A DNA stretch of 58,177 nucleotides from assembly GCA_023131225.1 (NCBI GenBank), contig JAGLZW010000017.1, forward strand, positions 1-58,177, written 5' to 3'. Positions within the stretch are counted from its first letter, which is position 1; each line of letters opens with the position of its first letter. Positions 3,593 through 9,356 of this stretch are shown here, in pieces. Position numbers and translations under genes: made by a program. This DNA is from Candidatus Bathyarchaeota archaeon. Lineage in GTDB: Archaea > Thermoproteota > Bathyarchaeia > Bathyarchaeales > SOJC01. Below the pieces are notes generated by a model. The model did not search any database. It was not told where the DNA came from and saw only the letters and a list, made by a program, of their open reading frames with translations.

Positions 3593-5173
3593 CTACAGCT
3601 TACTAAAAGGATTAATAGAGCAGTTCTGCTTGGAAAAAAACAGTCTCGTCTGCCCCATCGCACGCACGTCTAATTTTCTAACTTTAACAACAATCGGAAA
3701 ATCATTTACAACCCGCCCCAAAACAAGACAGTGATGCGGCGGCAAATCTCGAGCCACAGCCTTCACAGTTTCCGCGTCCACCTTAGAAGCTCTAGAAACA
3801 GTCTCTAGATCATGCCCATTAGTAAAGTTAAAGAGAAACAAGTTATCGGCTTGACGATAAATATTCTCTCGAATCGTATCTGGCTGATTAGTTATGAAAG
3901 TGGTGAACACCCCAAAATGCCGCATTCGAGTAACTATGTCAATCCAGTAAGTCTCTCTCAGATACAAGTGCGCCTCCTCAGCAAACAAAAAAATAGCTCG
4001 CAGTTTCCAATCTGTTAATAGCTCTACAAGCTTGCCAAGCACATACTCAACCACAATAAGCCTATTTATCGTTGATGTGTCACGAAGATTGATCACAACT
4101 GCACCGCCTACTCGGGCTTTGTGAAGCGAATTCGTCAACGAGGTTGCCTGTGCCGGGTTGTCAGTAAGCAAACCAGAATTCAGCAATGTATGATATCGAG
4201 ATAACAAAGCATCACGCACATGCTGATTACACTTCCAATTCCTTATCGCCTCACCTAACTCATGCATCGTCAAAACGTCTTTTTCTTCAAGAAAACGCCA
4301 TATGCGTTTAAACTCTCTGGCTGAGGTCCCTGGCAAACTAAGCGCGTTCACAAGAACATTAAGCATTACACGAAGTTTCAACTGCCCCAGAGTTACTTTG
4401 AGGTTTTTTCCAGGCGTTAAAACATGAATCTTTTCACGAAACTCGTTAGGTTTTCCATCAACATTTTGACCAAGGCCTGCATATTCGCCGTTCAAATCAA
4501 GGATTACAACGGGGGCACCGTGGCTTATCAGACTAAGGGTTAACAGTTTGGATATGTGAGACTTACCGGTTCCTTTTTTGCCTGTAATAATGTTTAGACT
4601 GCCATCTAAAGCCCGCAAATCAACGAGAAGCTGCTTCTTTTCTGTTGTTTCACCCAGATTTATCTGATAATTCCCGTCAATTTCTGTCTGAGCAAGTAGC
4701 CTTTCAATTGGGAGCGTCTTGATTATTGCACGAGAACGGGAAGGAAGCCAAGAACTCGTAGGCACTAACTCGCCGTTATTGTTTGTAGCTCGAATTTTGC
4801 AGATTAGTAGGCGTGCATCTTGAATATAGGCAATATGAGTCGCCACTTCAAAAGGATCTACATCTTCCCCTTCTATATAGGAACCATCATTATGGTTTCG
4901 AAGCAATTCCTCCAGAATGCCTGGTATGTCAGCGTATTGTATGTCTATGACTTGAACGATTAGACCTTTTCCAGTTTTAAGGTCCTCAATAGTTAGGTAA
5001 TCACCTTTCTCAACTTCTTCATTTGGAAAACTTATGATGTGCACCGTTGAACCTTCTTTTCTATAAAGCCGCAAGTCAACTAACCTTCCGGTCCTTTGCC
5101 GAAGCGACCAAAAAGTATGCGACGTATATTTGGCCTTCTTAAAATTCTTATGTTGTTTTCTCTTGCAACGCAA
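3593..5173 (-). CDS. herA: HerA-type DNA translocase/helicase ATPase
   Basis: This 526-aa protein begins with a HAS-barrel-like region (residues 29-90). Walker A GKKGTGKS follows near 198-205, then VVILDLNGEYAGLG, a Walker B-like LFAEEAHLYL, and an arginine/sensor region (TRMRHFGVFTTFITNQPDT). HerA hexamers pump DNA and work with NurA in end resection; the pair here is adjacent and co-oriented. The ATG at 5173 overlaps NurA by 94 nt. The only other in-frame start is TTG at 5074, which would cut into the first barrel strand, so the overlap is probably real. No Mre11 or Rad50 gene is nearby. Confidence 0.85.
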   Translation of the reverse strand: MRCKRKQHKNFKKAKYTSHTFWSLRQRTGRLVDLRLYRKEGSTVHIISFPNEEVEKGDYLTIEDLKTGKGLIVQVIDIQYADIPGILEELLRNHNDGSYIEGEDVDPFEVATHIAYIQDARLLICKIRATNNNGELVPTSSWLPSRSRAIIKTLPIERLLAQTEIDGNYQINLGETTEKKQLLVDLRALDGSLNIITGKKGTGKSHISKLLTLSLISHGAPVVILDLNGEYAGLGQNVDGKPNEFREKIHVLTPGKNLKVTLGQLKLRVMLNVLVNALSLPGTSAREFKRIWRFLEEKDVLTMHELGEAIRNWKCNQHVRDALLSRYHTLLNSGLLTDNPAQATSLTNSLHKARVGGAVVINLRDTSTINRLIVVEYVLGKLVELLTDWKLRAIFLFAEEAHLYLRETYWIDIVTRMRHFGVFTTFITNQPDTIRENIYRQADNLFLFNFTNGHDLETVSRASKVDAETVKAVARDLPPHHCLVLGRVVNDFPIVVKVRKLDVRAMGQTRLFFSKQNCSINPFSKL

Positions 5174-6153
5174 CGTTGTATTCCTAAGACCTCTGTTGCC
5201 GTGAACGTAGAGAATATATGAGCAAGACGGAGGGTTTCTGGATAACTCTGTAGAATTAAATCGTTCCCAAGCAATCTTTGGACCGCTTCAATCGCTTGTG
5301 TATGAGACAACTGCTTATCAACATCTAATCGGAAACTGCAGCAGCCCCCAGTTAGCCTTGCTACATATATATTACCCATTGAGCGCATTGGGCCTCCATA
5401 CTCAGGATAGCCCTGTATTTTGAGCAAGCATGGAGGCGGATATTTCCATGCAAGGTCTGTTAGGCGATGACCATATAGAAGTAGTCGTGTCATCTTTGAA
5501 AAAGCTAAGATAGTGTTTTGATTGTCACGCGATTCCTTTAGCAGTCGTTCCATGTTATGTACAGGTGTTTCAGGAGTGCCCGCTGTGAGACTTCCATCCC
5601 AAAGAATAAGGTTGCCATGCGTTGTCTGGTTGATGGTTGCCTGTATCCATCGTTCGAAAAGAGTTGTTAGTCTGAGCTGCATGTGAAGAATGTTAGGTGA
5701 AATGTATCGTTGTATATGTGCTGTTTGGCGATTTTCACCAAAGTTGTGAATATCATTTTTGTTTTTCTCAGTAATGTGAAAAGGAAAAGGACCCAATCGC
5801 AAGTAACGGTAGCGATCAGCTTGTTTCCATACAATAGCACCTCTTACTGCAAGTAACAAGCCCGTTTCGGTTTCGCCCAGTTTTATGCTTGAGACATCTA
5901 TTGCAACTATGGGAGTTTTTGTATGATTTGGCTTCAGCTTCACGAGTCTTGTCGAAGGAAGGAAACATTTTGGTTCTTCTCGTGCAAAACGTTGAGTTGT
6001 TGTGTTTCCTGCAAAAAATGGTTGATTGTCCACCCATTTTTTCATGGAGCGTACGCTGAGCTCTATGAATTGCTGCGGAAATTGTAGGTCTTCTTTTTGG
6101 GGTGGAAAATTATATTTTGGTGTTGTTGTTATAGGTAATTGTGCATTCACCAA
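5080..6153 (-). CDS. nurA: NurA-domain 5'-3' nuclease
   Basis: This 357-aa protein carries the two NurA acidic motifs: TPIVAIDVSSIKLG (around residue 80) and LILWDGSLTAG (around residue 185). A C-terminal block RILRRPNIRRILFG follows. NurA is a Mn-dependent nuclease that resects DNA ends with HerA. The consensus first motif VDGS is changed to IDVSS while the aspartate is kept. It starts at TTG 6153 or GTG 6150, inside a tandem 9-bp repeat that supplies GGTGA. Divergent from the winged-helix gene at 6246 across less than 100 bp, so the two may share control. Confidence 0.8.
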   Translation of the reverse strand: MVNAQLPITTTPKYNFPPQKEDLQFPQQFIELSVRSMKKWVDNQPFFAGNTTTQRFAREEPKCFLPSTRLVKLKPNHTKTPIVAIDVSSIKLGETETGLLLAVRGAIVWKQADRYRYLRLGPFPFHITEKNKNDIHNFGENRQTAHIQRYISPNILHMQLRLTTLFERWIQATINQTTHGNLILWDGSLTAGTPETPVHNMERLLKESRDNQNTILAFSKMTRLLLYGHRLTDLAWKYPPPCLLKIQGYPEYGGPMRSMGNIYVARLTGGCCSFRLDVDKQLSHTQAIEAVQRLLGNDLILQSYPETLRLAHIFSTFTATEVLGIQRCVARENNIRILRRPNIRRILFGRFGKGPEG

Positions 6154-6222
6154 GATTCACCAATATCTTTATGTTTGGTGTTCTTGGCATTTAAGTATTG
6201 TGCATGAACAAATTGCACAATA
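6145..6222. promoter_or_regulatory. Divergent control region with direct and inverted repeats
   Basis: Between nurA (-) and the winged-helix gene (+) lie ATTCACCAA at 6145-6153 and again at 6155-6163, with TTGGTG at 6175-6180 in inverted orientation. A perfect 9-bp inverted repeat follows, TATTGTGCA (6196-6204) and TGCACAATA (6214-6222), separated by nine bases. Such spacing suits a dimeric winged-helix regulator. The encoded neighbour is itself a winged-helix protein, so autoregulation is a reasonable inference. No binding data exist in the sequence. Confidence 0.5.
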
Positions 6223-6245
6223 CAATAACCAATAGGCGAGAAACA

Positions 6246-6689
6246 GTGGTTGAAAGCAGAGATGCCAAGGGTCGTGTACATGTACGGTTGAAAGTGGGGA
6301 GCATCGATGTTGAGGTTGAGTGTGGTGTAGATGAAGTGGGGGACGTTGTTAGTAGGGTTTTGGAAGCGCTAGCTGAAAGTGGTGGTGTCGTTGCGGATGG
6401 TGCAAGTTCTTCTGGAAGAGTCGGGGTTAGCTATCGAGAGACCTGCAAAGGTTTGATTTTGGATCTGTGGCGGGAAGGCTGGTTTGGACTTGGTCGTAGC
6501 CTTGGTGAAGTTCATGGGGAAATGGGTCGTAGAGGTTTTCATTATGATCGCACAGCTGTAGCGCACGCGTTGGTCGATTTGGTTCGAGAGGGAGTCTTGA
6601 CACGGGAGGGAAGGCCCAGAAGGTATCGCTATCTGCAGAAACGTCCACCGCCAACTGTCGCCAAAACCAAGAAAAGCCAAGAGAAGTGA
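6246..6689 (+). CDS. Winged-helix protein with N-terminal strand-strand-helix segment (paralog A)
   Basis: About 147 aa from GTG 6246; upstream in-frame starts at ATG 6204 and TTG 6198 would place the inverted repeat inside the gene. Residues 10-45 (RVHVRLKVGSIDVEVEC plus an EV-rich helix) match the N-termini of the three proteins encoded at 7172-8595. The C-terminal 90 residues form a winged helix. Its recognition part, HYDRTAVAHALVDLVREG then YRYL, aligns with paralog B (HYPSTTLSGVLSWLVKKG, YVYIL). The tail is basic (TVAKTKKSQEK). Not a family I recognise by name; DNA binding is likely, the target unknown. Read divergently from nurA. Confidence 0.65.
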   Translation: MVESRDAKGRVHVRLKVGSIDVEVECGVDEVGDVVSRVLEALAESGGVVADGASSSGRVGVSYRETCKGLILDLWREGWFGLGRSLGEVHGEMGRRGFHYDRTAVAHALVDLVREGVLTREGRPRRYRYLQKRPPPTVAKTKKSQEK

Positions 6690-7171
6690 AAAAACGATAG
6701 GGGGGAGAAGAGGGGGAGGTAGGGTGTTTTTGGTGTGTGCATGCGCAATGCTAGGAGCTCTGAGTTTTGTTTAGCTTCGAAAAACTTTCTAAAAGGATTG
6801 CGAATGCGAATGAAGTATTTGTATCATTTACAGGCTACATGGGTTACTGTGTGTTTCAAATTGATATTGGCTTCTGTTATTTCAATTGGAGATTTTCGAA
6901 CTGCAGGATCTGTTCCTGATGCGCGCGCGTATGAAGAGATACAAGGGCGTGGATTCGGCCATTGAGAATCATTTTAGAAAACTACGAAAGAACCGGAAAA
7001 TTGTATATTTACGCTAAGAAAGGAAAAAACCCATATAATAATGAGAACACAAAAATTGTACGAAATGCTAAAGCGACTTGTGTGAATATGCGGGTGTATA
7101 AGAACTATAAACTGTCGAACGCAGCGACGAAACAATCCGAATCTTGTAAAAAAGAACAAGAACTCTAAAGT
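6690..7171. other. Gene-poor interval between two convergent regulator genes
   Basis: A G-rich purine run (6698-6722) follows the stop of the preceding gene. No family-level coding signal is visible. One frame with protein-like composition runs from TTG 6886 to TAA 7017 (43 codons, strongly basic C-terminus), but it has no ribosome-binding site and no recognisable motif. No RNA gene, mobile element or terminator is evident. Confidence 0.4.
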
Positions 7172-7669
7172 CTAAGCCTTGCCTCGAATCTGTGGCAAGA
7201 CCTCATCTATTAACTGCTTGACCCCTAAGGTCGAAAGCCGAAAACCTACATCCTCTACTCTCACTACTAGACCCTTACGACACAGCTCGCCAAGCCGGGT
7301 ACCTGTAATCTTTCCGCTCTTTCCCAGCCAAATCTGCATCTCTTCCTTTGATAACCACGGTTTGTATAAAACGCCCAACCGCCCCCCAACATAAGCTGCA
7401 AGCAACATCAACAGCAAACCTTCATTATCAGTCAACTTTTCCTTAGGAACCAAAACCGCCGGTCCCTCCTCTGCCACAGCAACCAAACCCTTTGCAGCTT
7501 CAACAACCTCCACTAAATCCACAGTAAGAACCACTTCCCGCGTCGCATCAAAAAGCGGAATCATCTTACCGAAAAACTGGTTAATGCCCGCCCAAACATC
7601 GTCAACATCACCTGTAAAAGTTTCCTCAATGTCCTTATACTTAATATGCACCGTAACACTCAACGTCAA
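7172..7669 (-). CDS. Winged-helix protein, paralog D
   Basis: A 165-aa protein, last of three co-oriented genes. It starts at TTG 7669 and overlaps the upstream stop (TTGA). The N-terminus, VTVHIKYKDIEETFTGD followed by VDDVWAGINQFF, has the same strand-strand-helix outline as its neighbours. The C-terminal winged helix contains GTRLGELCRKGLVVR and FRLSTLGVKQLIDEVL, close to paralog C (ARLNEMTKRGLV, FRLTTQGEKWVEEEI). Function unknown. Translational coupling with paralog C suggests the products act together. Confidence 0.7.
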   Translation of the reverse strand: MTLSVTVHIKYKDIEETFTGDVDDVWAGINQFFGKMIPLFDATREVVLTVDLVEVVEAAKGLVAVAEEGPAVLVPKEKLTDNEGLLLMLLAAYVGGRLGVLYKPWLSKEEMQIWLGKSGKITGTRLGELCRKGLVVRVEDVGFRLSTLGVKQLIDEVLPQIRGKA

Positions 7670-8139
7670 GTGCTCTCCTTCAACTTCGACATAATTTCCT
7701 CCTCAACCCACTTCTCACCCTGCGTTGTCAATCTAAATTGCGGTCGCCCCGGGTCAGGCTTGAACACCAAACCCCGCTTCGTCATCTCATTCAACCTTGC
7801 TGGCACCATAGACTTCACACCGCTAGATTGCAGCAAACGGTCAATTTGCGTCGCCGTATTCGTCTTTCCATCAGAAGCATACAAAACCAGCCCAATAGAT
7901 TCATAATGCGTGAGTTTACGTCTCGCTGTAATTACTGGTCCTTTCGTAGTAAACTCTACAATTCCATCCAACTGTGCTTGCAAAGGCGGTGTCAGCTTCG
8001 ATGAAACCAGATCGCCAATTCTCTCCATAAACTCAGGGGGCATCTCTTGCAGCATATCCAAAATATCATTTGCGCTATTACCTTCAATAATAACTTCACC
8101 GAAAGACGTCTTCACTCGAATTCGTAGGTGCCCAGGCAA
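7666..8139 (-). CDS. Winged-helix protein, paralog C
   Basis: A 157-aa protein starting at TTG 8139, with GGAGG eight bases upstream inside the end of paralog B. The N-terminal segment LRIRVKTSFGEVIIEG plus the helix DILDMLQEM matches paralogs A, B and D. A linker follows, then a winged helix (ARLNEMTKRGLVFKPD, FRLTTQGEKWVEEEI) that pairs best with paralog D. It lies in a tight three-gene operon with B (3 nt gap) and D (4 nt overlap). No known family assigned. Probably a DNA-binding or protein-binding adaptor. Confidence 0.7.
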   Translation of the reverse strand: MPGHLRIRVKTSFGEVIIEGNSANDILDMLQEMPPEFMERIGDLVSSKLTPPLQAQLDGIVEFTTKGPVITARRKLTHYESIGLVLYASDGKTNTATQIDRLLQSSGVKSMVPARLNEMTKRGLVFKPDPGRPQFRLTTQGEKWVEEEIMSKLKEST

Positions 8140-8142
8140 TAC

Positions 8143-8595
8143 TTAAGCCTCCTTCTTGGCCAAAATGTAGACGTACCCAGCGTCAGTTTTCCATCGTCTC
8201 ACTTTCCCTTTTTTCACAAGCCAAGACAATACACCCGACAAGGTTGTGGATGGATAATGAATAGCATTCGCCTTCAAAGCTTCAGTGATCTCAGGTGTTG
8301 TTCTAGGTCTCCAAGCCCCCCATTCAGTCTCAAGCAGCTTTAAAACAGCCTGACTACAGTTCTTTGCCTTCTTGATTGAGGGGTACATTTTGGACGGTTT
8401 GGCAGTGGGGGAAGTCAACTGCACTGTTACAGGTGATTTTTGGGTGGCACTGATTTTAGAGTCTATGTGGGAGAATGCTTTGGAAATATTCTCAACAAGT
8501 TTTGGGAGATCCCTAACTGTTTTCAAAACTTCCTTTTGTGTGCCTGAAATTTCAACCTCGTTTTGGTTTATTTTGATGCGGAACGAAAATGGCAT
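8143..8595 (-). CDS. Winged-helix protein, paralog B
   Basis: A 150-aa protein from ATG 8595, chosen because GAGGT lies nine bases upstream and because SFRIKINQNEVEISG begins the shared N-terminal segment directly. A longer frame to 8664 is unlikely. A Ser/Thr-rich linker follows, then a winged helix with IHYPSTTLSGVLSWLVKKG and a YVYILAKK wing. This domain is close to paralog A, which lies on the other strand beside nurA. First gene of the B-C-D operon. The duplication and divergence within 2.4 kb suggest a local expansion. Confidence 0.7.
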   Translation of the reverse strand: MPFSFRIKINQNEVEISGTQKEVLKTVRDLPKLVENISKAFSHIDSKISATQKSPVTVQLTSPTAKPSKMYPSIKKAKNCSQAVLKLLETEWGAWRPRTTPEITEALKANAIHYPSTTLSGVLSWLVKKGKVRRWKTDAGYVYILAKKEA

Positions 8596-8764
8596 GCTTT
8601 GTCTAACCTCATAATGATAGAGTGATATTAGATAGATATTATAAAATCTTTTACTGTTCAACATGGGATTTCGTATTCATTCATAAGAGAAGATATGTGC
8701 TGTTGTTGCGTCGAAGCCTTATGTTGCCAAAGCTGTAACTTTCAGACAGAATCGCGGAAAGATG

Positions 8765-9116
8765 TCAAGATATGATTTCACCCGTTTCTTGTCTGTATGA
8801 TTGAGCGAAGTGAATGCGGTAAAAAGTCGTTTCTCTTCCGTTAACGACTTCTTTGTAGCTGCCTTTGTAGACTTCACAGTCGCAGCGGCTGGGTTCAATG
8901 GCCACTGAAACGAAGTTGGGGAAGCATTTGAACAATCTTGTGCAGAGTTTCCTCCCTTTTTCTGTTAGTTCGAACGCTTTTTTCTTTTTCACCTACTTTC
9001 TTGATGCTGTGTTTTACGAGTCCTTTTTGTTCAAGTTGCTGTCGATGGGAAACTTGCGGGAGTGTGCGCCGTCGCCGACACGTTAAAAAAAAGATTCTGT
9101 TAAGTTGAGTAGACAT
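8765..9116 (-). pseudogene. Frameshifted small winged-helix regulator (candidate)
   Basis: Two overlapping frames each give half of a winged-helix protein. The upstream frame (from ATG 9116) reads RTLPQVSHRQQLEQKGLVKH then KKVGEKEK. The downstream frame (from 8992) continues AFELTEKGRKLCTRLF and then a cysteine-bearing tail to 8765. Together they make the GLVK...wing...LTEKGRKL pattern of small regulators. The frames switch at an A-rich run, where one extra A would explain the break. The downstream half alone would begin with GTG right after a TAG. True mutation, assembly error or recoding cannot be told apart here. Confidence 0.4.
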
Positions 9117-9356
9117 TCGCCCCTTCTCATAAACTGAAGTAGAAGGTGTGAAGTGAGTGGCAAAGGATGCACTTGCAGCATGGAAGTTGATGAGAAGGGC
9201 ATCTAACTAGGCTAGATTCGCTGTTTCTAATACTCCTAATTTTTGATTATTTTGAGAAAACCTTGGATATTATATACTGAGCGATTACATTAGCGAAACG
9301 CTCTTAGAAGATCATCTTTGAAACGATAGGTTGACGCTTAAATCTCCTAGTTTTGC

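Follow-up and report, generated by a model that had tools for sequence, protein, structure and literature searches.

We know of no LexA-like control of HerA-NurA genes in archaea. Sulfolobus islandicus cannot live without the HerA-NurA machinery (PMC4351679). What is known of the control of this machinery comes mainly from the Orc1-2 network of the Sulfolobales, within which the Sulfolobus herA-mre11-rad50-nurA operon is induced about two-fold by 4-nitroquinoline 1-oxide (NQO) (PMC10470591). Here we describe a nurA-herA pair from a Candidatus Bathyarchaeota archaeon, on a stretch of 58,177 nucleotides (contig JAGLZW010000017.1 from position 1, hereafter the window) belonging to a Bathyarchaeia genome of 1.9 Mb in 50 contigs. 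The pair faces a small winged helix-turn-helix (wHTH) gene, pA, across a shared control region, and three further wHTH genes, pB, pC and pD, lie close by. We consider it likely that pA is a dedicated local wHTH regulator of itself and of the nurA-herA end-resection genes, acting through a predicted operator.

Intact HerA and NurA motifs and overlapping genes are features that the locus shares with the Mre11-Rad50-linked HerA-NurA operons of the Sulfolobus and Pyrococcus type; mre11-rad50 adjoins it in several relatives, though not in the window genome. It differs from the Sulfolobus operon, for which we found no reported wHTH partner, in the local wHTH gene and predicted operator attached to it. 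The small wHTH protein, the divergent gene and the palindrome beside a TATA box recall autoregulators of the MarR, PadR, ArsR and Fur type, whereas the N-terminal hairpin and helix of pA lie outside Pfam and its proposed target is a recombinational repair complex. Like the Sulfolobales DNA-damage regulator Orc1-2, pA would control herA-nurA through a winged helix; unlike Orc1-2, an AAA+ protein that acts genome-wide, it has a predicted site that occurs once in the window genome. The modelled winged-helix domains also resemble those of HOP2, Sso10a and AspA in structure, but with E > 0.001, no sequence relation and a different N-terminal domain. Neither HerA-NurA nor the divergent wHTH autoregulator is a new kind of system; what appears to be new is their pairing throughout a phylum, together with the proposed operator; no paper linking a wHTH gene to NurA-HerA was found in a literature search of incomplete coverage, with most subscription journals outside it.

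Pairing of pA with nurA across genomes

The herA gene (3593 to approximately 5083, minus strand) encodes a hexameric-type ATPase with a Walker A motif, GKKGTGKS, and a Walker B motif ending in EEAH. It matches DUF87 (49.6 bits, E 6.9e-13) in a family search, and its top relative in the PDB is Sulfolobus HerA (4d2i, residues 141-478). Overlapping it, nurA (5080..6153, minus strand; start at TTG 6153 or GTG 6150) encodes a divergent NurA nuclease that remained under the NurA cut-off in a Pfam search and gave no match in a PDB sequence search. It nevertheless conserves D86, E167, D186, Y304 and H312 (open reading frame (ORF) numbering), which we take to correspond to the known NurA catalytic positions; D86, D186, Y304 and H312 are invariant across 35 NurA sequences. 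Among 80 named Bathyarchaeota loci, herA lies immediately behind nurA in 78. On the opposite strand, pA (6246..6689, plus strand) encodes a winged-helix protein of a likely 147 amino acids. Its mechanically called ORF begins at TTG 6198, within the inverted repeat described below, and GTG 6246, after AGGCGAG, is the likelier start.

The sequence-only reading of this locus had tied wHTH regulators to NurA-HerA, and the gene company strongly supports that link. Of the named Bathyarchaeota loci, 76 could be assessed, and in 74 of these nurA and pA are divergent neighbours. Of 299 genomes sampled across the phylum, 75 carry a strong pA match, 85 a strong NurA of the window subfamily and 69 both (Fisher p ~1e-44), and in all 69 of the latter the two genes are divergent neighbours, separated by about 100 nt (mostly 60-120 nt). 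Families with this pairing include amoA-bearing ammonia oxidisers (f52, f55). The pA protein is 51-53% identical to two ammonia-oxidiser pA sequences, with a nearly invariant recognition-helix region (Y-D-R-T-A-V-A-H), and NurA is 21-24% identical to its counterparts at ammonia-oxidiser loci.

A pA gene without a window-type NurA was found in six genomes, G108 and five of families f29 and f33. In both loci opened from these two families (L190, L191), the gene divergent from pA encodes another kind of NurA (PF09376, 54 and 70 bits) and a gene for a HerA-family ATPase (DUF87) comes next; A9-type NurA was not detected in either family. Since pA thus stands opposite a different NurA-HerA pair, its association appears to be tied to function and not to one gene lineage. 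The HerA-family ATPase of L190 (2062-4656) carries an inserted segment of about 350 amino acids, absent from its L191 homologue, which is probably an intein.

The control region between nurA and pA

The single divergent control region that nurA and pA had been proposed to share is real, and no part of the locus proved more informative. In 43 non-redundant nurA-pA loci of the order, alignment reveals a conserved block holding the nurA start and Shine-Dalgarno, next a stretch that varies, and then a TATA-like TATTTAAA with TTGYGCATGNNCANNATGNNCAATACAATA immediately behind it. In the window, the putative nurA Shine-Dalgarno-like GGTGA (6157..6161, minus strand) falls within a block, ATTGGTGAATC, that is highly conserved throughout the order ahead of the nurA start. 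The pA side carries a TATA-like element, ATTTAAGT (6189..6196, plus strand; TATTTAAA or TATAAAT in relatives), followed by the inverted repeat TTGTGCATGAACAAATTGCACAA (6198..6220), the predicted pA operator. Within the opening codons of nurA, a TTGTGCA half-site (6139..6145) may be a second operator element or may reflect a coding constraint.

The strict pattern TTGYGCA-N8..10-TGNNCAA, typically with N9, occurs in 40 of the 43 order loci as against 0.04% of Markov shuffles; this and the following shuffle frequencies indicate orders of magnitude only, because the patterns were composed after inspection of the sequences, so that shuffling tests chance and not the choice of pattern, and because the loci share ancestry and are not independent. 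The window genome (1.9 Mb) contains the strict repeat only once. Among 61 relatives, the site was found at the nurA-pA locus in most genomes and at few places elsewhere, and the reversed pattern used as a control for these whole-genome scans was nearly empty. Of 15 loci from other families, 13 have TTGYKCA immediately behind a TATAAAT-type box (0.55% of shuffles), and 11 have TTGNNCA-N3-TGNNCAA in the same place (0.09%). The L190 and L191 loci are without this TATA-TTG core and have longer palindromes in the corresponding position after the TATA box, while L199, L200 and L205 have a second inverted repeat on the nurA side.

The locus has the usual marks of a local autoregulator: a gene for a small wHTH protein, divergent orientation, a palindrome that separates the TATA box from the expected start, and no more than one strict site genome-wide. 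On these grounds pA is taken as a regulator of itself and of nurA-herA. In the proposed mechanism, pA, probably dimeric or in a higher oligomeric state, would bind the TTGNNCA and TGNNCAA half-sites just behind its own TATA box and block the pA promoter, resulting in autorepression. As the same region of about 100 bp serves nurA-herA on the opposite strand, bound pA would also set nurA-herA output, by blocking or aiding the pre-initiation complex: the repeat overlaps the expected pA start, which would favour repression there, and lies on the upstream side of the nurA TATA element, where binding could either block or activate. HerA-NurA would in this way be placed in a feedback loop of its own instead of being constitutive. 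If pA also responds to DNA damage, such control has precedent, because the Sulfolobus operon is induced by NQO (PMC10470591).

More tentatively, and at somewhat less than an even chance, it is conceivable that the locus represents a phylum-wide, vertically inherited end-resection switch, in which a wHTH family that has an undescribed N-terminal domain and acts at a conserved operator would sense the state of recombination, such as DNA ends or free NurA-HerA, and adjust the amount of HerA-NurA in Bathyarchaeia, in ammonia oxidisers and in their relatives. A regulator and a defined operator common to uncultured Bathyarchaeia and ammonia oxidisers would, if confirmed, make archaeal recombination control directly testable. 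Small wHTH families that no curated family covers also gain names and targets from the locus.

Weighing the proposed regulator against other explanations

Several observations weigh against a regulatory role for pA. The strict repeat pattern is missed in three of the 43 order loci, and the difference between N9 in the order and N3 in other families means that one protein family would need to read two layouts. One genome (G012; loci L057 and L098) retains nurA and the repeat, with pA not detected, and window-type NurA occurs without pA in other orders of Bathyarchaeia and in families f28, f36 and f41. Structure comparison leaves the specific regulator family of pA and pC unassigned, because all Foldseek matches have E > 0.001, and the top match of pA, the winged helix of the recombination factor HOP2 (2mh2, TM 0.85 by target), would also fit a role in repair.

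That last match, together with a pA sequence conserved better than NurA, favours an alternative in which pA, and perhaps pB-pD, are DNA-binding accessory subunits of HerA-NurA, the winged helix gripping DNA, the hairpin docking on NurA or HerA, and the repeat serving autoregulation of a stoichiometric partner. Four to five paralogues exceed the needs of one promoter, and in several orders pB-pD share strand and run with nurA-herA as subunits might. However, pA is divergent and not co-transcribed, pB, pC and pD are often unlinked, nearly every nurA-pA region examined has an operator-like repeat, and the two loci where pA accompanies another NurA-HerA pair are harder to explain for a docked subunit. 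We therefore regard the subunit explanation as unlikely, if the most serious competitor to a regulatory pA. It seems highly improbable that pA stays by nurA through chance or neutral synteny alone and that the repeat is nothing more than a common promoter element. Gene order in archaea can be retained, and gatE/gatD too are recurrent neighbours, but the adjacency holds in 69 of 69 genomes although other neighbours differ between families, and neither the single strict copy in the window genome nor the shuffled controls (0.04-0.55%) suit a general promoter feature.

The sequence-only reading had suggested an accessory module for defence or replicon maintenance. Defence loci often contain HerA homologues, and another nurA-herA pair of the window genome does sit with SMC-like ATPase, methyltransferase and SIR2 genes; nevertheless, we rejected a defence or plasmid and virus maintenance module as very improbable, since vertical conservation from order to phylum level, in place of a sporadic distribution among defence islands, largely refutes it, as do mre11-rad50 and gatE next door in relatives and the absence of pA relatives from the viral contigs scanned. 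The window-type pair is kept in 43 of the 61 relatives, and its NurA (profile A3) in 100 of 151 genomes of the class. Several relatives have rad50-mre11 directly past herA (8 of 57 assessable named loci, and also L180 and L181). From this order- and class-wide conservation and the position of rad50-mre11, we conclude that the window pair is the lineage's conserved, vertically inherited housekeeping NurA-HerA and not an accessory copy. The earlier remark that Mre11/Rad50 is lacking is true of the neighbourhood, where mre11-rad50 does not adjoin herA, but not of the genome, which has rad50 at the very start of another contig (C10:1-1980); mre11 was not found in the assembly, and most simply it falls in the gap ahead of C10:1.

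The pB, pC and pD paralogues and other loci

The remaining wHTH genes all lie on the minus strand: pB (7172..7669), pC (7666..8139) and pD (8143..8595, with an open frame extending to 8664). The earlier description of four wHTH genes with one N-terminal segment stands insofar as all four encode an N-terminal beta-hairpin and helix and a C-terminal winged helix. They do not form a uniform family: full-length alignments join pA with pD (hhalign 97.7%, E 1.7e-12) and pB with pC (98.4%, E 6.6e-15), whereas alignment across the pairs is weak and confined to the hairpin (45% for pA and pB), and these pairings define two close paralogue pairs. A supposed frameshifted fifth copy (8646..9297, minus strand) was discarded, as the sister genome has other DNA there and both frames are without a tblastn match in the fetched loci; it is an unrelated remnant outside the module, a broken wHTH-like gene in a species-specific insert.

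Pfam and NCBIfam searches placed none of pA-pD above a cut-off, and no Pfam family matched the N-terminal domain. Their relatives in other families match generic wHTH models only, an ammonia-oxidiser pB exceeding the MarR_2 cut-off (27.4 vs 27 bits), and a PDB sequence search with pA returned only chance matches to SERCA. The AlphaFold2 models (predicted local distance difference test, pLDDT, of 84 for pC and 79 for pA) show a hairpin and helix, a flexible or disordered linker and a wHTH domain, and in these models the winged-helix fold of pA and pC is clear. Their Foldseek neighbours are mostly DNA-binding regulators: MarR/PadR-like proteins, RosR, Sso10a-2 and the pNOB8 AspA wHTH for pC, and HOP2-, H1-, Fur- and RTP-like winged helices for pA.

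The sequence-only reading had asked whether the paralogues keep company with nurA-herA. This holds for pA, which is not widespread without the pair, but less so for the others, which sometimes are. One or more of pB, pC and pD is within reach in 32 of 63 named Bathyarchaeota loci. Among the 299 phylum genomes, pB (profile A6) was found in 115, no more than 6 kb from nurA in 57 of the 77 genomes with both, and without a window-type NurA in 10 of 87. In the groups that lack pA, most opened loci have pC, pB, pB' and/or pD ahead of nurA-herA in the same orientation, with pD immediately upstream of nurA in L171, L172 and L180.

A conserved operator sought upstream of the pD-pC-pB genes of the order yielded only a TATA-like TAAATTCTAAAAGG. 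In orders without a divergent pA, palindromes with an ACGT core (AACGTTA, TTACGTAA, TATACGTAACGTATA) precede the pC- or pB-led run of wHTH genes, nurA and herA (L171, L172, L174-L176 and L179-L182), with 19 sites against 4.8 expected and a maximum of 13 in 1000 shuffles, which suggests a parallel regulatory circuit. As related small wHTH proteins, pB-pD may in those orders act like pA, through an ACGT-core operator. The genes gatE and gatD, for Glu-tRNA(Gln) amidotransferase, recurrently adjoin pB/pC/pD (L056, L069, L079, L193, L201, L202 and others), and in f17 genomes (L184-L187) pB/pC/pD lie next to gatE/gatD with window-type NurA not detected.

A check for a second, Mre11-Rad50-linked herA-nurA pair elsewhere in the genome had been proposed; four pairs are present in all, so that the window copy is not the sole one. 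The pair on contig C19 (L010:4605-7623) adjoins Cdc6 and the PolD small subunit and is preceded on the same strand by a 142-amino-acid wHTH protein with a hairpin-like N-terminus, only weakly related to pA-pD (hhalign 21.8%). On C28 (L009:5348-9116), a sub-threshold NurA-like protein of 636 amino acids overlaps a HerA of 628 amino acids. The fourth pair, on C9 (L011:2722-13745), lies among SMC-like ATPase, DNA adenine methyltransferase-like, AAA and SIR2-like genes, surroundings that are likely a defence island.

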